A stretch of DNA of 64,000 bases from Planococcus sp. SK3692 (lineage in GTDB: Bacteria > Bacillota > Bacilli > Bacillales_A > Planococcaceae): positions 930,001-994,000 of the forward strand of contig NZ_JARCHV010000002.1 of the NCBI RefSeq assembly GCF_028890485.2. Reading direction: 5' to 3'. The stretch's first letter is position 1. Each line of letters begins with the position of its first letter. Positions 2,138 through 50,440 of the stretch are shown here, piece after piece. Below the pieces are notes generated by a model. It was not told where the DNA came from. It worked only from the letters and a program-made list of their open reading frames with translations, and made no database searches. The position numbers and the translations under genes were made by a program.

Positions 2138-2599
2138 CGAATTCTCCTTTCTGTCTGAGTTCAAAAAAAAAATACAAGTATGATTAATAGGCAAAATAAA
2201 AACACCAAAAAGAAGTGTGCACTCTCTTGGTGTTATTCCAGCTCAATTGTCTGGCTCACTCAACCGAATTATTTAAATAGGACAATCAATTAGTATGGAT
2301 ATTCGAGGTAATCACCAAGCGGCAATGGTCATTCACCTTTATAGCGCACGCTCAATTTGATGGTTTTATGATAGACATTGATTCAAGCAATGTCAAAATA
2401 TCCATTCATCAATTCGGCCTTAGCAATGGAAGCTGATAATTGCACGTTAAGCAGAAGCTAGGAAAATGAAGGGTTTCCTTTATGCATAATGAATTGCGGA
2501 AATTCCGTAATTATAACAAATTAATGATTGTTTTATTAACTAAAAGGGTACTTAAGTAATGGTGGAAACAAAAATAAAACAGGAAAGTAGGGAGGTAAA
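2138..2599. other. 460-bp intergenic region, mostly unexplained
   Basis: This region holds divergent upstream sequences for the M50-like gene (minus) and the LysM gene (plus), the hairpin at 2201-2234, and an imperfect palindrome around 2491-2509 (AATTGCGGAAATTCCGTAAT). No credible coding frame with a ribosome binding site is visible on either strand. Confidence 0.5.
2201..2234 (-). terminator. Terminator-like hairpin in the leader of the M50-like gene
   Basis: AACACCAA pairs with TTGGTGTT with further inner pairing (AGTG/CACT). On the minus strand the hairpin is followed by TTTTATTTTGC, a terminator-like tail. It lies about 64 bases before the M50-like start codon, with no gene upstream on that strand, so it may be a leader attenuator or end a small RNA. 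Confidence 0.5.
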
Positions 2600-3445
2600 A
2601 TGACTGAATTTCATTTGACACCTGTCCCTCCAGCCAAGAAGAAAGAGCTACAAATGCCGAAAGGTAAGAAACGGCTATCCAAAGTTCTCTTGTCATTTGC
2701 GTTAGTCTCATCCGCAGCAGCGGCAGGCCCTATCATGTCCCCCAGTGCGGCAACGGAAGTGGCCAGTTATTACACTGTGCAAAAAGGGGATACTTTCTAC
2801 AGTATCGCTAAAAAGTACGGCCTGGTAGTCGAACAGCTGATGGCGGCAAACTTCACGACGAGCACCAAAATCATCGTGGGGCAAAAAATTGCCATCCCGC
2901 ATAAAACCCAGTCGTGGTCCGGAAACCAGGAAGATTTGAATGCAAGAAACTATCGGGTGGTCAAAGGGGATACTTTATATTCCATTTCCAAACGAACCGG
3001 TGTGTCGATCGACAGCATTAAGAGAATGAATAATTTGACATCCGACTTGATCATGATCGGGCAAGTCTTGACGCTGTACCCGGATGTCGGTGTGATTCAA
3101 CAGACTTCCGCAACGTACTATGTGAAGTCAGGCGATACGAAATACACTTTGCGAAATAAATTCGGCAGTACGATCACTCTGCCAAGCGAAGAATTGCAAG
3201 TGCTCCAGCCGCTTAAAATCACCGGAAAAGCACTTCAACTCACTACGGAAGAACCATTCGGGCTGGCAGATGGCCGAGTGATTGAAGTGAAAGTCGGCAA
3301 TGATTATTACGCGGTCAATTTGTATCAAGGAAACGGGCCTATCCAGCATTTGGCGGACCGCACTGATCTTCGGCTGACATTTACAGTAGTTCGTGTAGGT
3401 GAGCGCTATGAAATGGTTTCATATGCGGTGCAACAGTTGGAGTAG
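2600..3445 (+). CDS. Secreted LysM-repeat protein
   Basis: A 281-residue protein with a basic N-terminus and a hydrophobic stretch at about residues 29-50, giving a signal peptide or anchor, followed by two clear LysM domains at about 56-100 (YTVQKGDTFYSIAKKYG) and 117-160 (YRVVKGDTLYSISKRTG). A third weaker copy may begin at 173 (YYVKSGDTKYTLRNKFG). LysM binds N-acetylglucosamine-containing glycans, so the protein should sit on peptidoglycan. The C-terminal ~100 residues have no recognised catalytic domain. The start ATG at 2600 follows GGGAGG by six bases; an inner ATG at 2654 lacks a comparable site. Confidence 0.85.
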   Translation: MTEFHLTPVPPAKKKELQMPKGKKRLSKVLLSFALVSSAAAAGPIMSPSAATEVASYYTVQKGDTFYSIAKKYGLVVEQLMAANFTTSTKIIVGQKIAIPHKTQSWSGNQEDLNARNYRVVKGDTLYSISKRTGVSIDSIKRMNNLTSDLIMIGQVLTLYPDVGVIQQTSATYYVKSGDTKYTLRNKFGSTITLPSEELQVLQPLKITGKALQLTTEEPFGLADGRVIEVKVGNDYYAVNLYQGNGPIQHLADRTDLRLTFTVVRVGERYEMVSYAVQQLE

Positions 3446-3473
3446 AACAGGCAGTCAGACATGAATGACAACG

Positions 3474-3510
3474 AAAAAACACCCTGACGCAGTTGGTCCG
3501 GGTGTTTTTT
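3474..3510. terminator. Bidirectional terminator
   Basis: AAAACACCC and GGGTGTTTTTT form a stem with A- and T-runs on either side, between the LysM gene and the converging methyltransferase gene. Confidence 0.8.
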
Positions 3511-3564
3511 AGTATAGTTTTCATTTTCCAATTGCCGAAATCGCTGCTCCAAATAGAGATAGAT

Positions 3565-4524
3565 TTACGTTTTCTCACATACAAGGATTTCACGCAGGAA
3601 CAACGACTTTTTCGCGATGCAGCGGTCGGTTATCGTGAATCCTGCTTGTTCAATCATATGGTCGATCGGGTCGATGGTGACAACGAGCAGTTTTTCGGTA
3701 ACCGGCAAAGCGTGTTTCAGGATTTCCTGTTGTTCATCGGGTGTCGCGTGTGTATACAGGTTATAGGGCATATCAATGATGGCGACGTCGTATTGCTCTG
3801 TGATGTCAGCAATTGCGCCCAACTCAACTGATCCAGACAAGCCGAAATGCGCGATATTTTCCCGGGAGCCATCGACGACGAGCGGGTTGATATCACGGCC
3901 GACGATGTCGATTCCCATCGATAAAGCTTCGACGAGCACCGTCCCGATACCGCAGCAAGGGTCGATTGCTTTCACTCCATTTGGTTCCGGAACGGCGATA
4001 TTGGCGAGGGCGCGAGCCGTTTTGGTACTGAGCGCAGTGGAATATTCCCTCGGTTTTTGCTGGTGTTTGAACCAAACCGACTCGCTCAATTGATAGATCC
4101 CGAAATGCCAGCGGCCATCAAATGGAATCAGGCCGAATATGATATCGGGACTATGGACATTGGCTTTACCTTTAATGACAAAGCCAATTTGACGCTCCAT
4201 GTCCCGCTTTTCGTCAAATCCGACTTGCTCAGCCGCTTCCAAATCGTTGATTTTCGGGAAGATCACTTTGAATGTGGAATCCTCCATATCCAATTCTGCA
4301 GCCTGTTTCACGATATCCGCAAATTCCGTTCCTTCAAACAAAAGCTCAATCCGCTCCTTGATGAAAGGGCTGCGGCCTGGATAGACAGCGCGATTGCTTT
4401 TAATAACTTTTCCACTCGTGTCTTTTCCAAAAAATGCACGCATTTCCAGTTGGCATAAATCTTTTTCATCTTGGTGATAGGCATAGGTATACATAAATTC
4501 GCCTATTGGAGTTAATGGTTTCAA
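3565..4524 (-). CDS. Trm11-like S-adenosylmethionine-dependent RNA methyltransferase
   Basis: A 319-residue protein with a Rossmann-type methyltransferase domain in its C-terminal half: DPCCGIGTVLVEAL is SAM-binding motif I, GRDINP follows at the next strand, and DMPYNLY occupies the catalytic motif IV position usually written (D/N)PPY. The N-terminal half resembles the THUMP-associated region of Trm11 guanine-N2 tRNA methyltransferases. The TTG start at 4524 is supported by AAGGA about nine bases upstream; the first ATG is 10 codons later. The DMPYN variant leaves the exact target base uncertain. It is monocistronic. Confidence 0.8.
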   Translation of the reverse strand: MKPLTPIGEFMYTYAYHQDEKDLCQLEMRAFFGKDTSGKVIKSNRAVYPGRSPFIKERIELLFEGTEFADIVKQAAELDMEDSTFKVIFPKINDLEAAEQVGFDEKRDMERQIGFVIKGKANVHSPDIIFGLIPFDGRWHFGIYQLSESVWFKHQQKPREYSTALSTKTARALANIAVPEPNGVKAIDPCCGIGTVLVEALSMGIDIVGRDINPLVVDGSRENIAHFGLSGSVELGAIADITEQYDVAIIDMPYNLYTHATPDEQQEILKHALPVTEKLLVVTIDPIDHMIEQAGFTITDRCIAKKSLFLREILVCEKT

Positions 4525-23053: not shown

Positions 23054-23090
23054 AAAACCCGCCCTCCGTATTGGAAGGGTGGGTTAAAAA
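23054..23090 (-). terminator. Terminator of the signalling operon
   Basis: On the minus strand AACCCACCCTTCC pairs with GGAGGGCGGGTT with one A-C mismatch, followed by TTTTTG. It lies just after the precursor gene stop. Confidence 0.8.
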
Positions 23091-23102: not shown

Positions 23103-23504
23103 TTATACTTTCGGGTTGACAGACCAAGGTTCAGGAATGCGTGATTTAGCAGCGAACTGATCTTCAACAGACCAAGGTTCAGGAATGCGTGATTTAGCAG
23201 CAAACTGATCTTCAACGGACCAAGGTTCAGGAATGCGTGATTTAGCAGCAAACTGATCTTCAACGGACCAAGGCTCAGGGATGCGTGATTTAGCAGCGAA
23301 CTGATCTTCGACGGACCAAGGCTCAGGGATGCGTGATTTAGCAGCGAACTGATCTTCGATAGACCAAGGTTCAGGAATACGTGATTTAGCAGCGAACTGA
23401 TTTTCCTTAGCAGAAAATTGTTCAGTTACTGCTGTCGTATCGAAATTTGGTGAAGTACTTAAAGCAATAGCAGATACAAAAAATATAATGACACTTTTTT
23501 TCAT
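23103..23504 (-). CDS. Secreted tandem-repeat pro-peptide, predicted RRNPP signal precursor
   Basis: A 133-residue protein. Residues 1-17 (MKKSVIIFFVSAIALST) form a short signal peptide. Residues 35-129 are six consecutive copies of a 16-residue unit, QFAAKSRIPEPWS with V or I then ED; a degenerate partial unit (EQFSAKE) precedes them and NPKV closes the protein. No folded domain is visible. AGGAG overlapping the receptor stop lies nine bases before the ATG, so translation is coupled to the upstream HTH-TPR receptor. Receptor plus small secreted precursor is the standard RRNPP layout (PlcR-PapR, NprR-NprX, Rap-Phr), where a 5-10 residue peptide is cut out and re-imported. SRIPEPWSV or a sub-peptide is the likely mature signal. 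That it signals is inference. Confidence 0.8.
   Translation of the reverse strand: MKKSVIIFFVSAIALSTSPNFDTTAVTEQFSAKENQFAAKSRIPEPWSIEDQFAAKSRIPEPWSVEDQFAAKSRIPEPWSVEDQFAAKSRIPEPWSVEDQFAAKSRIPEPWSVEDQFAAKSRIPEPWSVNPKV
23118..23402 (-). repeat. Six 48-bp coding repeats in the signal precursor
   Basis: The DNA repeat unit is 48 bp and the copies differ at only a few positions (for example GTTCAGGAATG versus CTCAGGGATG, mostly synonymous). They are contiguous with no spacers and stay in one reading frame. Near identity suggests recent expansion or gene conversion, and the copy number may vary between strains. Confidence 0.95.
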
Positions 23505-23516
23505 AATGTTTCACTC

Positions 23517-24806
23517 CTATCTAAGGTTAAGTGCTTCTTTACATGCGTCTTTTGATTTTTCAAAAGCTTCAGCGGCCTCTTTATACCGCTCTTGTTTAAA
23601 GTATATCTTACCCAAATAGCCTAAATAGTATCCTAAATCATTGTAACTTTTTGAATTTATAAAACTATTTATTAATTTATTTAATATAATATCTTCGAAT
23701 TTATCATCTTCTTCGTCTAATAAGTAAGTTAATGCTACAAATTCCATGTATGCATCTTTAAAAACGGTATTTGAAGGAGAGTCGATTCTAATTTCCTTAG
23801 CTTCTACTAGTTTTTGGCCAATCCTCATAATTTCTTTGGCTTTAAATTTGTTTCCCAGTTCTAAATAACTTTTAATTAAGACACAATGTGCTGAAATATT
23901 ATCGGCTATATACTCCTCAGGTATGTATTTCAAGGAGTTGTTCAAATGAGGAATTGCTTCTTCGTATTGTTGGTATATGAAATTTGAAAATCCCACGTTA
24001 TATTCGGTGGTGAATTTAAGAATATCGATATCTAACTTACTTCCTATGGTTAATGCATTCTTATGGTGTTCAAGAGATAGCTTATAGTTGCCGAAGTGTT
24101 CATGGGTAATCGCAATATTCAAATGGCACTCTACAATACGTTTAGGTACAAACTCTTGTTGATAAATCTTTAAAGCCAGTTCTGAATATTTGTAAGCTAA
24201 CTCATGCTCTTCGCACTGATTGCTTGAGATGCCAATAGAATAGTATAGATCTCCTATTTCTGCGGCAGAAATTGACTTAGGAGCAATCTTTTCAGCAATC
24301 AAATAAGTTTTCAAAGCATTTTCATAATCATTCAAAATATAATTATAGTTGCCATTATATTTGTGATACAGATAATACTGTTCCTGATCCATAAACTCTT
24401 TGAAACGGTCCATCTCTTTGATTTTCTTTTCTGCACTTTCCAAATCTCCCGTAATGATGAAATAGCGGATTTGTTGAATGTCGAATTCAAGTTCGACGTC
24501 TTCGTCGGCGCGCAAAAGAGGGTGATTGCAAATATCTGCGTAGTGCTCCATAATTTTGCCTTTGTTTTGCGGATGGAGCAATGAGTTTTTAAAGTTTTTC
24601 ACTAGCACTTTGCCAATGGGATTGTCTTTGGCTGCCAGCGGGATTTCGAGTTTTTTGCATAATGCTTCCAAATCTTTTAATGCGGGTTCTTTCAATCCAG
24701 CTTCAATTTTTTTCAAATCTTTTGGAGAGAAAATGCCCGATGCAGTTTCTTCCATGCTGAAACGCTTTTTCAGGCGATGGTATTTCAGTCGCATTCCTGT
24801 GTCCAT
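23517..24806 (-). CDS. RRNPP-family (NprR/PlcR-like) HTH-TPR peptide receptor
   Basis: A 429-residue regulator. Residues 5-56 are an XRE-type helix-turn-helix (RLKYHRLKKRFSMEETASGIFSPKDLKKIEAG), close in pattern to PlcR/NprR N-termini. The rest, from about 70 to 429, is all-helical with repeated TPR-like pairs, clearest at the C-terminus (GYLGKIYFKQERYKEAAEAFEKSKDACKEAL). Length matches NprR (about 420) and exceeds AimR and PlcR. AAGGAG lies seven bases before the ATG at 24806; longer in-frame starts up to 24944 lack one. Base composition is visibly more AT-rich than neighbours, hinting at transfer. It is followed 12 bases later by the repeat precursor. Confidence 0.88.
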   Translation of the reverse strand: MDTGMRLKYHRLKKRFSMEETASGIFSPKDLKKIEAGLKEPALKDLEALCKKLEIPLAAKDNPIGKVLVKNFKNSLLHPQNKGKIMEHYADICNHPLLRADEDVELEFDIQQIRYFIITGDLESAEKKIKEMDRFKEFMDQEQYYLYHKYNGNYNYILNDYENALKTYLIAEKIAPKSISAAEIGDLYYSIGISSNQCEEHELAYKYSELALKIYQQEFVPKRIVECHLNIAITHEHFGNYKLSLEHHKNALTIGSKLDIDILKFTTEYNVGFSNFIYQQYEEAIPHLNNSLKYIPEEYIADNISAHCVLIKSYLELGNKFKAKEIMRIGQKLVEAKEIRIDSPSNTVFKDAYMEFVALTYLLDEEDDKFEDIILNKLINSFINSKSYNDLGYYLGYLGKIYFKQERYKEAAEAFEKSKDACKEALNLR

Positions 24807-24964
24807 GTCGACTCTCCTTTCCGTTTGCATGGGCAGTACTTCAATCATCCATGTAGGAGAGTTTATCTCCGCTTGGCCAGGCGGCCCTGACAAGCGTATA
24901 TCCGATAGATTGTTTAGTACGATAATTACCGCCTCCACATCCACATTTTACTTTAAATACATAT

Positions 24965-24993
24965 ATTAAATCTATGATAGCATCAATTTTCAA
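24965..24993 (-). promoter_or_regulatory. Sigma-A-like promoter of the receptor-precursor operon
   Basis: On the minus strand TTGAAA (24993-24988) and TTTAAT (24970-24965) are separated by 17 bases. Confidence 0.5.
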
Positions 24994-25134
24994 AATAAAC
25001 TGCTTTTTTATTTCCATTACTCTGGTTTTGAGAAAAAAGGTAAAAAGTGCCTATCAACTAAAATAATAGCCAAATCATTACAGTACTTGGACATACTACT
25101 AGTCCTTTTGCTCTATCGAAATAATTTCGTGAAA

Positions 25135-25161
25135 GTTTAGATAAAGGGAGATGAGGGGTAA
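25135..25161 (+). promoter_or_regulatory. Sigma-B-like promoter of first YflT gene
   Basis: GTTTAG (25135-25140), 15-base spacer, GGGTAA (25156-25161). This fits the sigma-B pattern GTTTAA-N12-15-GGGTAT and precedes a general-stress gene. Confidence 0.65.
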
Positions 25162-25207
25162 GGAAGAATAATGCAACAGCCAAATCAATTAAAATGGAGG
25201 TATTATC

Positions 25208-25801
25208 ATGAACTCATCAAATAAAAAAGTGCTTGGAATCGTTTATTCACAGGAAGATTTCGAGCGTAAACTGAGCCAGCTAAATGAACAAGGCTATTCC
25301 GCAAACGAAATTCATGCGGTAGCTCAACATACGGACCAACTCGACAAGCATGCGGTAAACGTAGAAAAAGCGGGATCTTTCGGAGATAAGATGAAAAGTT
25401 TTGTAACAGGAAAAAGCGCGGTAAAAGAATCCATTGATTCGCTTGGCTTATCGGAATCGGAGTCGCAGCGATATACAGAAGATGTTGCTAAAGGCGGGAT
25501 TCTTTTATATGTAGATGGTGAGAGAAAAGGAATCATCGAAGCAGTGAAGGAATCGGAAGGTGCGCCCGAACATGAACCGACGGATGCAGAACGCCGTCAG
25601 TTTATCCAGTCCGTCGATAATAATTATGATGAACAGGAAGACCGTTTCGCCCGCGGAGAGACTTTCTTGCAAGATCCGACATTAATTAAAGACGAGCGCC
25701 ACGTTTCGTTCTCGACGCAGGAAAAAGCTGAAGTTGAAAAAGCCAGAGGCGGAACGAGCAAAACAGAAGCGCAAAGTAAGACCAATAGAAAATACAGATA
25801 A
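25208..25801 (+). CDS. YflT-domain general stress protein
   Basis: A 197-residue cytoplasmic protein. The N-terminal ~110 residues are a YflT/general-stress-17M domain (VLGIVYSQEDFERKLSQLNEQGYSANEIHAVA, then KGGILLYVDGE), which in Bacillus is a sigma-B-induced protein of unknown biochemical role. The C-terminal 80 residues are charged and probably disordered. GGAGG lies seven bases before the ATG. It is followed by its own terminator and a second YflT gene with a matching promoter. Confidence 0.8.
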   Translation: MNSSNKKVLGIVYSQEDFERKLSQLNEQGYSANEIHAVAQHTDQLDKHAVNVEKAGSFGDKMKSFVTGKSAVKESIDSLGLSESESQRYTEDVAKGGILLYVDGERKGIIEAVKESEGAPEHEPTDAERRQFIQSVDNNYDEQEDRFARGETFLQDPTLIKDERHVSFSTQEKAEVEKARGGTSKTEAQSKTNRKYR

Positions 25802-25962: not shown

Positions 25963-26907
25963 ATGGCACAGACAAATCGTCAATTTGAAATCGTTTATAC
26001 GCAGGAAGAAATGGAACGCGCATTAGAAGCTCTTATTTCTAAAGGCTATCGGAACGAAGATATCCATGTGCTAGCAAATGACAAAAACTTGGTGAATGAA
26101 GCCCACGACCGTTACGGGGTGGATTCTACCAAAGCGAACTCCTTTGGCAACCGCATCAAAACCCTGTTGACAGGGGAAGATAAAGCCCGTGCCAAACTGG
26201 ATGAATTTGGAGTGGATCGCGACAAGGCGGATCATTACGAACGTGAAATTGAACGCGGCGCTGTCCTTTTGTATACCGATGGCGCACCTAGCGGGAGTGC
26301 AGAAAGTGAACATTTCTCTTCTCATTCTGATGACAACCGCCCAATGGATATGGATGCTGGGGAACGCAACACAGCGTTTGCTCCGTTTGGCCGTGATGTT
26401 GAACGGGACGGCAGAATGCATGACGATGAAAAGCTCATCGACAAAGACATCCAAAAACATGAAGGCCGTCAAGATACGGGAGTTGATGGAATCTATACAA
26501 CTGATGCAACGCGTGAGCAGACAAATAAATCCCAATTGCACAGCAAATCACAGGATTCCCGCTTGAAAGGTGATGAAATTCACCCTACCAGTGACCGTGT
26601 GAAGCCTTCAGAAGCGGAAAAACCATCTGAAAAACGGATGGAACACGAACCGAAACTCGGTGATCAAGACGGAGAAAAAGAATTGAACCGTGAAGACGGT
26701 GTAAACCGCCGTCAAGACGAGCCTTCTCCTGGCGTTGATCCCAACCTAGGACCAGCACCGTTTGGGCGCGATTCAGAAGAAGAGCATTTGGCTGACGTAG
26801 ATCGCCGTGACGATTTCGAGTCAACGAAAAATCCTAGAGATGTTGATGATTTCCATAAAAACGTAGAGAAGAAGACCGGAACGCCACCAACGCCGCGTCT
26901 ATTCTAA
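25963..26907 (+). CDS. YflT-domain general stress protein with long acidic tail
   Basis: A 314-residue protein. Residues 8-105 form a YflT domain paralogous to the previous gene (FEIVYTQEEMERALEALISKGYRNEDIHVLA; RGAVLLYTDG). Residues 110-314 are rich in D, E, K and R and almost surely disordered; APFGRD occurs twice in it (FAPFGRDVERDG and PAPFGRDSEEEH). CAGGAGG precedes the ATG. Duplication of the domain followed by tail growth is inferred. Its role beyond stress response is unknown. Confidence 0.78.
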   Translation: MAQTNRQFEIVYTQEEMERALEALISKGYRNEDIHVLANDKNLVNEAHDRYGVDSTKANSFGNRIKTLLTGEDKARAKLDEFGVDRDKADHYEREIERGAVLLYTDGAPSGSAESEHFSSHSDDNRPMDMDAGERNTAFAPFGRDVERDGRMHDDEKLIDKDIQKHEGRQDTGVDGIYTTDATREQTNKSQLHSKSQDSRLKGDEIHPTSDRVKPSEAEKPSEKRMEHEPKLGDQDGEKELNREDGVNRRQDEPSPGVDPNLGPAPFGRDSEEEHLADVDRRDDFESTKNPRDVDDFHKNVEKKTGTPPTPRLF

Positions 26908-48931: not shown

Positions 48932-50440
48932 TTGAATTCAAAGTCTAAATGGATGGTGTCCGGTGTTTCATCAATTCTCGCATTGTCTTTGCTGATGCCT
49001 AGTGCACACGCAAACACCAGCAAGCTTGATGAATTGGAGCAGGAGCAACAGCAAGTCCAAAAAGAACAACAAAAATTGGAAAAAGAACGCAAAGAGTTGG
49101 AAGAAAAAGAAGAAGATCTAAGTTCGGGCATTCAAGAAAAAGAAGGCGAGATTCAAGAAACGTCTTCAAAGCTCGATGGCATCGTTTCAGAAATCCAGCA
49201 ATTGGACAAAAAAATGCAGGAAACGCAGTCAAAGGTCGATACTGTACAAGCTGAAATCGACCAAACTAAAGAAGAAATTGATGAATTGAAAGAAGCAATT
49301 AAAGAGCTCGAGCGTAAAATTGACGAACGCACGGAACTGTTGAAAGAACGTGCGCGCGCCATTCAGATGAGCGGTGGATCTGTCGAGTACATAGATGTTC
49401 TGCTCGGCGCCAATAGCTTTATCGATTTTATTGACCGTGTTTCAGCAGTCAATACCTTAATCGAAGCAGACCGTGAAATCATGCGTGAACAAGCAGACGA
49501 CAAAAAAGAATTAGCTGCGAAAAAAGAAGCGGTTGAAACAATTCTTGCCAATCAAGAAGAGCGTCGCGAAGAGCTGGTTTCTTTGAAAGCATCATTGGAT
49601 AGTCAGAAACAAGAACAAGCTGGCTTGAAAAAACAAATGGAAACCGAACAAGAACGTTTAGCTTCAGAGAAGAACAATTTGGAAGCGCAACACGAAGAAG
49701 CACTAGAAGTTAGCGCTGCAGTCGAAAAGCAGATCATGGGGCAACAATCCCGCATGGCGAAATTGGCTCAGCAAGAAGAAGCTGAACGTACACGTATTGC
49801 AGAAGCGGAACGAAAAGCAGCGGCAGAACGTGCGGCAGCAGAAAAAGCGGCGGCTGAGCGTGCGGCAGCAGAAAAAGCAGCAGCAGAAAAAGCGGCGGCT
49901 GAGCGTGCGGCAGCAGAAAAAGCAGCAGCTAAATCTTCATCAGCAAGTGCCAGCACTTCAAGCCCGGCAGCAGCACCAGCAGCACCGGCACCAACGCCAG
50001 CGCCGGCACCGGCTCCTGTCGTCAAGCCATCAGCAAACTTCGTGATGCCGGCATCAGGTCGCCATACATCAGGATTTGGCGGACGTGATATTGGAGACGG
50101 CGCAGAGACGCATCTTGGATACGATATCGCCAACAGCCCAGGAACACCTATCGTGGCTTCGGCTGCTGGGTTTGTATCATTTGCAGGATCAATGGGTGGT
50201 TACGGCAATGTTATTATCATCAACCATTCGATTAACGGGCAACCATATGCGACCGCATATGCACACTTGAATTCAATTGGGGTATCAGTCGGGCAAAAAG
50301 TTGAACAGCGCCAGTTTATCGGCGGCATGGGCAATACCGGCCGTTCGACAGGTCCTCATTTACATTTCGAAATCCACGTGGGAGCTTGGAACGGCGCGCG
50401 CAGCAATGCTGTGAACCCGGCCAATTATCTTTCTTATTAA
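48932..50440 (+). CDS. Secreted coiled-coil M23 peptidoglycan hydrolase, probable FtsEX partner
   Basis: A 502-residue protein. A signal peptide (to about AHA at 28) is followed by a long coiled coil (30-270), an Ala/Glu/Lys/Arg-rich segment (290-330), a Pro/Ala linker, and a C-terminal M23 (LytM) domain at about 375-500 whose zinc ligands are present: HLGYD and HLHFE. The coiled-coil-plus-LytM architecture resembles EnvC, while position after ftsEX matches PcsB/CwlO-type partners. Unlike EnvC, the metal site looks intact, so it may cut peptidoglycan itself. Start is TTG at 48932 with AAGGGGG nine bases before. Confidence 0.87.
   Translation: MNSKSKWMVSGVSSILALSLLMPSAHANTSKLDELEQEQQQVQKEQQKLEKERKELEEKEEDLSSGIQEKEGEIQETSSKLDGIVSEIQQLDKKMQETQSKVDTVQAEIDQTKEEIDELKEAIKELERKIDERTELLKERARAIQMSGGSVEYIDVLLGANSFIDFIDRVSAVNTLIEADREIMREQADDKKELAAKKEAVETILANQEERREELVSLKASLDSQKQEQAGLKKQMETEQERLASEKNNLEAQHEEALEVSAAVEKQIMGQQSRMAKLAQQEEAERTRIAEAERKAAAERAAAEKAAAERAAAEKAAAEKAAAERAAAEKAAAKSSSASASTSSPAAAPAAPAPTPAPAPAPVVKPSANFVMPASGRHTSGFGGRDIGDGAETHLGYDIANSPGTPIVASAAGFVSFAGSMGGYGNVIIINHSINGQPYATAYAHLNSIGVSVGQKVEQRQFIGGMGNTGRSTGPHLHFEIHVGAWNGARSNAVNPANYLSY
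49797..49930 (+). repeat. Ala/Glu/Lys/Arg-rich tandem repeat in the M23 gene
   Basis: Codons for short units AERAAAEKAA are repeated about four to five times with near-identical DNA (GCGGCAGCAGAAAAAGC). It forms a helical linker between the coiled coil and the M23 domain and is prone to length change. Confidence 0.85.

Follow-up and report, generated by a model that had tools for sequence, protein, structure and literature searches.

Among the peptide quorum-sensing systems of the RRNPP group, NprR-NprX of the Bacillus cereus group combines a receptor made of a helix-turn-helix (HTH) domain and a long stretch of tetratricopeptide repeats (TPRs) with a secreted propeptide encoded just downstream. 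The same layout is found in the window analyzed here, a stretch of 64,000 nucleotides from contig 5 of the genome of Planococcus sp. SK3692 (genome G000; positions 930,001 to 994,000 of NZ_JARCHV010000002.1), which codes for a receptor of this kind and an adjoining propeptide composed of six repeated units. Rap-Phr systems with duplicated pheromones (Rap3T and Rap105) share with the window the TPR fold and a repeated-pheromone propeptide which requires several cuts, as described in passages of PMC11343458. AloR-AloP of Paenibacillus likewise joins an HTH-TPR receptor to an adjoining secreted precursor; the passages of PMC7425212 concerned mention no repeated pheromones, and a part of PMC12700828 places the pair in another clan (C). 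The locus of the window very probably represents an RRNPP-type quorum-sensing pair of the NprR-like kind.

Repetition of the pheromone within a propeptide has been published before. Passages of PMC9765709 describe each of 17 oversized NprR propeptides as repetitive, count as many as six pheromone copies in AimR, NprR, Rap and PlcR propeptides, and propose under the term "chattering" that extra copies raise signal output. The maturation of duplicated Phr has been studied, and up to eight Phr pheromone copies are mentioned, in sections of PMC11343458, while a passage of PMC5199041 notes that some nprX genes carry duplications. The first-pass annotation, made from the letters of the window, had put known precursors at a single peptide or a few; the figures of PMC9765709 and PMC11343458 contradict this, and since propeptides with repeats are already in print for NprR, Rap, AimR and PlcR, its argument for novelty fails. 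The cassette is real, conserved and NprR-like, with a multi-copy propeptide, and the arrangement itself is of a known kind. Its points of interest are a copy number both variable and unusually high, and its presence throughout the genus: six units in the window and up to 14 in relatives, against up to six copies for the NprR family in the passages of PMC9765709.

The receptor gene begins with the ATG at 24806 and ends at 23517 with a TAG stop codon. At 429 residues, with TPRs, the product lies within the 250-500 residues and domain content that define RRNPP(A) receptors. Pfam assigns TPR_12 above its cut-off (8.1e-15), and besides the TPR models no family in the libraries searched reaches its cut-off with this protein; HTH_3 matches weakly at residues 7-58 (17.1 bits against a cut-off of 23), and PHROG 5208, of unknown function, matches at 2.2e-13. 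In a sequence search of the PDB, NprR comes first among the matches (3.1e-7) and RapF next (6.0e-5). A profile of 12 relatives again retrieves NprR as the best natural PDB match, in a single stretch over columns 70-416 (3.8e-15), an engineered consensus TPR protein scoring above it (1.2e-18) by way of at least 12 repeated matches; the HTH domains of ComR and PlcR match this profile weakly (E about 0.01). An N-terminal HTH is thus likely. The AlphaFold model (10 rows) has a mean predicted local distance difference test score of 63, good only from about residue 180 and poor in the N-terminal part. In a Foldseek comparison of this model with the PDB, ranks 1-23 are all Rap or NprR, and the VIA structure search places Rap at ranks 1-7, with generic TPR proteins close behind at a modest margin and NprR at rank 48. 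Taken together, sequence and predicted fold assign the receptor to the Rap/NprR branch of RRNPP sensors, and gene order and conservation join them in backing the RRNPP cassette proposed in the first-pass annotation.

The likeness to NprR has its limits. NprR sensu stricto consists of an HTH, a three-helix bundle and nine TPRs; in the window receptor the HTH_3 match is below cut-off and the N-terminal model poor. By sequence, NprR is its closest natural solved structure. An unlikely alternative is that the receptor acts mainly as Rap does, binding Spo0F until the peptide relieves the binding, with DNA binding secondary. Planococcus is mostly non-sporulating, which speaks against this role; in its favor, Spo0A_C is found in all 46 genomes of the genus (the copy in G029 with an internal stop), and G000 codes for a stand-alone regulator, an open frame of 134 residues which shares 55% identity with Spo0F of B. 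subtilis. Of the four NprR residues which contact Spo0F (from passages of PMC4970707), two are kept, Asp107 and Glu188 aligning with Asp101 and Glu183, and Tyr223 aligns with Phe219, while against such binding Tyr118 aligns with Gln112; the alignment is distant and hand-counted, with Trp79 of NprR anchored on Phe72 of the window receptor and profile positions taken as window residues. Rap lacks an HTH according to a part of PMC9765709; the window receptor, of 429 residues, has the weak HTH_3 match at residues 7-58. In the same distant alignment Arg126, which contacts NprX (PMC4970707, in part), corresponds to Gly120, invariant in 44/44 aligned receptors. Because Arg126 is not conserved, the receptor is described as NprR-like and not as NprR proper. 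The peptide core differs too, RIPEPW in the window against the SSKPDIVG / SKPDIVG type in NprR-NprX, and a different peptide family would explain the change from Arg126 to Gly120. A fused-chain structure model of receptor and peptide was uninformative on binding.

The propeptide frame begins with the ATG at 23504, 12 bp after the receptor gene, as the first-pass annotation had it, and on the same minus strand, and an AGGAGTG ribosome-binding sequence overlaps the receptor stop codon. Across the 40 loci of the genus with an intact propeptide, the distance between the two genes runs from -4 (an overlap of 4 nucleotides) to 13 nucleotides. On these distances, the translational coupling that had been claimed is suggested, not established. 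The product opens with KK and a hydrophobic stretch, continues with a short spacer and then consists of six 16-residue units (Table 1). The claim of six copies of one such unit is borne out: RIPEPW stands in 6/6, followed by SIED in the first, SVED in the next four and the tail SVNPKV in the last, and Tandem Repeats Finder reports a single 48-bp array of 6.0 copies (23119-23405, score 476, 94% matches). The claimed absence of a folded domain agrees with a Pfam search of the propeptide, in which no family reached its cut-off.

Table 1. Features of the receptor-propeptide locus, in window coordinates.
Feature	Position	Strand	Basis
Receptor gene; 429-residue HTH-TPR cytoplasmic sensor, Rap/NprR branch of RRNPP (by sequence and predicted fold)	23517..24806	-	open reading frame (ORF), Pfam, PDB match, Foldseek, 46/46 genus genomes
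Propeptide gene; 133 residues, secretion-like N-terminus and six 16-residue units	23103..23504	-	ORF, repeats
Signal-sequence-like N-terminus, about residues 1-25, KK then hydrophobic	23430..23504	-	by eye, limits approximate; relatives start similarly
Array of six units FAAKSRIPEPWS(V/I)EDQ, the last with tail SVNPKV	23109..23396	-	repeat finding, unit alignment
Core RIPEPW, copy 1	23364..23381	-	unit search; coordinates counted on sequence
Core RIPEPW, copy 2	23316..23333	-	unit search; coordinates counted on sequence
Core RIPEPW, copy 3	23268..23285	-	unit search; coordinates counted on sequence
Core RIPEPW, copy 4	23220..23237	-	unit search; coordinates counted on sequence
Core RIPEPW, copy 5	23172..23189	-	unit search; coordinates counted on sequence
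Core RIPEPW, copy 6	23124..23141	-	unit search; coordinates counted on sequence
Terminator-like stem and T run, closing the two-gene unit	23057..23086	-	by eye
Candidate leader hairpin; AGGAGAG 24812-24818 (receptor Shine-Dalgarno) complementary to CTCTCCT 24855-24861	24812..24861	-	46 loci, consensus fold

Repeats are common in surface proteins, and ligand binding is here assigned by analogy, so the repeat protein could instead be a surface or antimicrobial protein which the HTH-TPR protein regulates. This is highly improbable, given that no domain in the repeat protein rises above cut-off, that the receptor belongs with the peptide-binding Rap and NprR proteins, and that the same gene position in distant relatives often holds a short single-peptide precursor. 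As a precursor the protein is long: the strict class of RRNPP_detector admits propeptides of 10-100 residues (PMC10075063, in part), an operational cut-off of the program and not a biological definition, which the 133 residues of the window exceed. In the genus 33/40 intact propeptides are longer than 100 residues, and search programs with this limit will miss such systems.

The receptor is present in 46/46 Planococcus genomes, and in 44 of these loci a unit-bearing ORF adjoins it directly downstream; in the remaining two the array is interrupted by a run of N (L021) or by the contig end (L054). Such recurrence argues that the cassette is not a product of chance, and given its presence in every genome it looks chromosomal and vertically kept. 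All named records with the same receptor (9 loci) are Planococcus, and the closest, with 99% identity, comes from an uncultured isolate. A mobile-element origin was considered and rejected: the ten plasmid records retrieved are all below 60% identity, and a tblastn search with the receptor gave no match in 50,697 phage records. In this the locus differs from Rap3T and Rap105, which are phage-borne and have two pheromones per propeptide (passages of PMC11343458).

Six of the 46 main loci were left out of the intact set, two for runs of N in the array (L021, L055), three for an array truncated by a contig end or close to one (L041, L049, L054) and one, L019, whose propeptide frame is broken near its start. 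The break in L019 may be a sequencing error, its assembly (G029) being the one with a stop inside the Spo0A_C match; a stretch resembling the terminator-like stem of the window lies after its array. The 40 intact propeptides carry 2-14 units (median 7), with more than six in 22/40 and more than eight in 5/40, counts in which short-read assemblies may introduce errors. The largest arrays, of 13 and 14 units (L023 in G015 and L035 in G011), come from genomes of 1 and 2 contigs, and the sole intact array with two units, L053, carries a third, degenerate one. A second cassette occurs in 5/46 genomes of the genus at E 1e-20 (L058-L062), with a receptor 29-30% identical and 3-6 repeated units of its own, HPNPW, HPSPW or WPQPW; at this threshold it is absent from G000.

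Among other genomes of the family, 12/215 have a receptor match at E 1e-30 (58/261 in all); a search across the order, likewise over 261 genomes and at a stricter limit, gave the same places. Two of these code for arrays, five IIPEPW units in G062 and six MYPPPW units in G116, and in eight the precursor is short and resembles that of a single peptide. Neither G061, where the receptor match is broken across reading frames, nor G176 yielded a propeptide. The comparison was extended to the 20 best-scoring loci from the remaining families of the class, 10 of which have a short single precursor (by eye) and 6 no clear precursor. Three (L108, L109, L111) show three EPDHPKIV repeats each, and the propeptide of L118 (G612) has nine SDNSPGIKSL-type repeats, apparently a separate multi-copy case. 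Multi-copy propeptides thus also occur outside the clade of the window receptor. In a tree of 45 hand-chosen receptors, for which the program warns of long branches and in which the G116 row lacks the N-terminus, 24 receptors fall on one branch (100/100), all of them with multi-copy P-W arrays (RVTEPW in L056). This array-bearing clade spans three genera, while the other 21 receptors comprise 15 with single precursors, two with repeated ones (L108, L118) and four with none seen.

On the model of NprR and Rap, the polyprotein would be exported from the cell, where proteases may cleave within the linkers (xVEDQFAAK), releasing multiple copies of a short peptide centered on RIPEPW(S). The peptide would be re-imported by an oligopeptide permease and could then bind the TPR groove, change the shape of the receptor and switch target genes. 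One translation event would thereby yield several molecules of signal, and arrays that gained or lost units could alter the signal dose per cell. The release of each copy, the re-import, the binding and the regulon are all inferred from these analogues.

The sequences of the units bear on whether every copy counts. The core shifts between species in all units together (RVPEPW, RLPDPW, KIPQPW, KHPHPW). Within arrays, 946 unit pairs were compared over 49 arrays (48 with at least two units; partial arrays and the five second cassettes included), at core codons 1, 2 and 4, the positions left free by the search pattern. These show 653 silent against 7 amino-acid differences, or per-site rates of 0.332 and 0.0011. 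Whole cores are identical in 931/946 within-array pairs and in 14,295/45,414 between-array pairs, the former figure being inflated by the search pattern, which fixes P/T, P and W. The number of units differs in seven of nine close pairs (less than 12% divergence in receptor DNA, equal unit length), which partly overlap as some loci enter more than one; this analysis drew on 40 arrays, with L019 in and L041, L049, L053, L055 and the second cassettes out. The silent codon changes and the differences in unit number indicate that arrays gain and lose units quickly while one protein sequence is kept in each. Turnover and constancy both suit a useful repeated peptide, and neither proves release from each unit.

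An RRNPP pair whose active pheromone is a single copy or a longer fragment, with the remaining units as spacers or a by-product of repeat slippage, is possible but doubtful. The rapid drift of copy number suits it, as does the tail of the last unit, which differs from the internal linkers in uncut arrays, and in most known quorum-sensing propeptides the active peptide is C-terminal (a passage of PMC9765709). Spacers, however, would not need the same core in all units despite silent codon variation, nor cores that shift together between species, and degenerate first units occur only in L020, L053, L061 and L062. A covariation of receptor and peptide was also considered as a candidate and set aside as weak: six columns split four K-type peptides from the rest, and since these four lie on one branch (82/99) the split is not independent of descent.

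For the multi-copy pair as a whole, a tentative proposal can be made, that it forms a distinct NprR-like clade, fixed in Planococcus and occurring in two neighboring genera, with PxPW polyproteins of up to 14 units, in which unit number may serve as an evolvable dial of the quorum threshold through the signal yield of each translation event, the units staying identical and shifting together with specificity. No report of this PxPW clade, or of any array with 9-14 units, was found in the main text of open-licence papers. The string "Planococc" is absent from the main text of PMC9765709, PMC11343458, PMC10075063 and PMC12700828, and Planococcus may be among the 21 NprR genera of PMC9765709, unnamed. 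In the open-licence literature Planococcus together with NprR retrieves two papers, on the genome of a B. cereus and on the microbiome of dust, no paper joining either Planococcus or Planococcaceae with RRNPP was found among the matches listed, and the peptide core words have no match. Across its 40 intact loci the genus offers natural variants with 2 to 14 copies of a single pheromone, the copies shifting together between species. With this series it can be tested whether additional copies increase output and bring the quorum threshold down, and how propeptides of many units are processed.

Upstream of the receptor, the 60 nucleotides before its ATG are conserved in the 46 loci, CTCTCCT (-55 to -49) and AGGAGAG (-12 to -6) being near invariant. 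RNAalifold forms a 7-bp stem from these two elements in 24 leaders; of four variant cells in the stem, three still pair as G-U and one disrupts the pairing, and the 24 leaders show no double compensatory change. Single folds lack the stem in two of them (L041, L055), and for the window leader the fold has a z of -1.98, 12/200 shuffles being equally good. A hairpin masking the Shine-Dalgarno sequence is plausible, not established. Rfam gives three matches on 24700-25210, all far below gathering scores. The receptor frame remains open for at least 45 codons upstream of the ATG in 46/46 loci (leader 24806-24961), and an N-terminal extension was rejected in spite of this. Differences by codon position are 2452/3407/4849 in the last 20 upstream codons against 4239/1066/9166 in receptor codons 1-20, and the upstream codon differences comprise 5695 amino-acid-changing and 1462 silent ones. 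On account of these differences and the near-invariant Shine-Dalgarno before the ATG, 24806 is kept as the start, and the leader is treated as an RNA or DNA element in which the open frame is still unexplained. Further upstream lies a conserved block at 24974-24983, with a near-palindrome reading ATGCTATCAT in the window and ATGATATCAT in several relatives, perhaps a promoter or operator.

A neighboring gene pair of the YflT stress-protein type, with a family match only for the first gene, occupies 25208-25801 and 25963-26907; the pair stands upstream of the cassette in 12/13 relatives compared, and one of the genes in L056 (by eye). Elsewhere in G000, on contig 4 (L063), a second HTH-TPR receptor-like gene (2556-3830, minus strand) is 21% identical over residues 1-236. 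It is followed by a small secretion-like ORF (2411-2638, minus strand) which ends in TINGPQVLPPV in one copy, and a subtilisin-like protease gene lies just upstream (by eye); the two genes are perhaps another RRNPP pair. A separate short tandem repeat, with units of 15, 30 and 45 bp, is located at 49813-49929 of the window.
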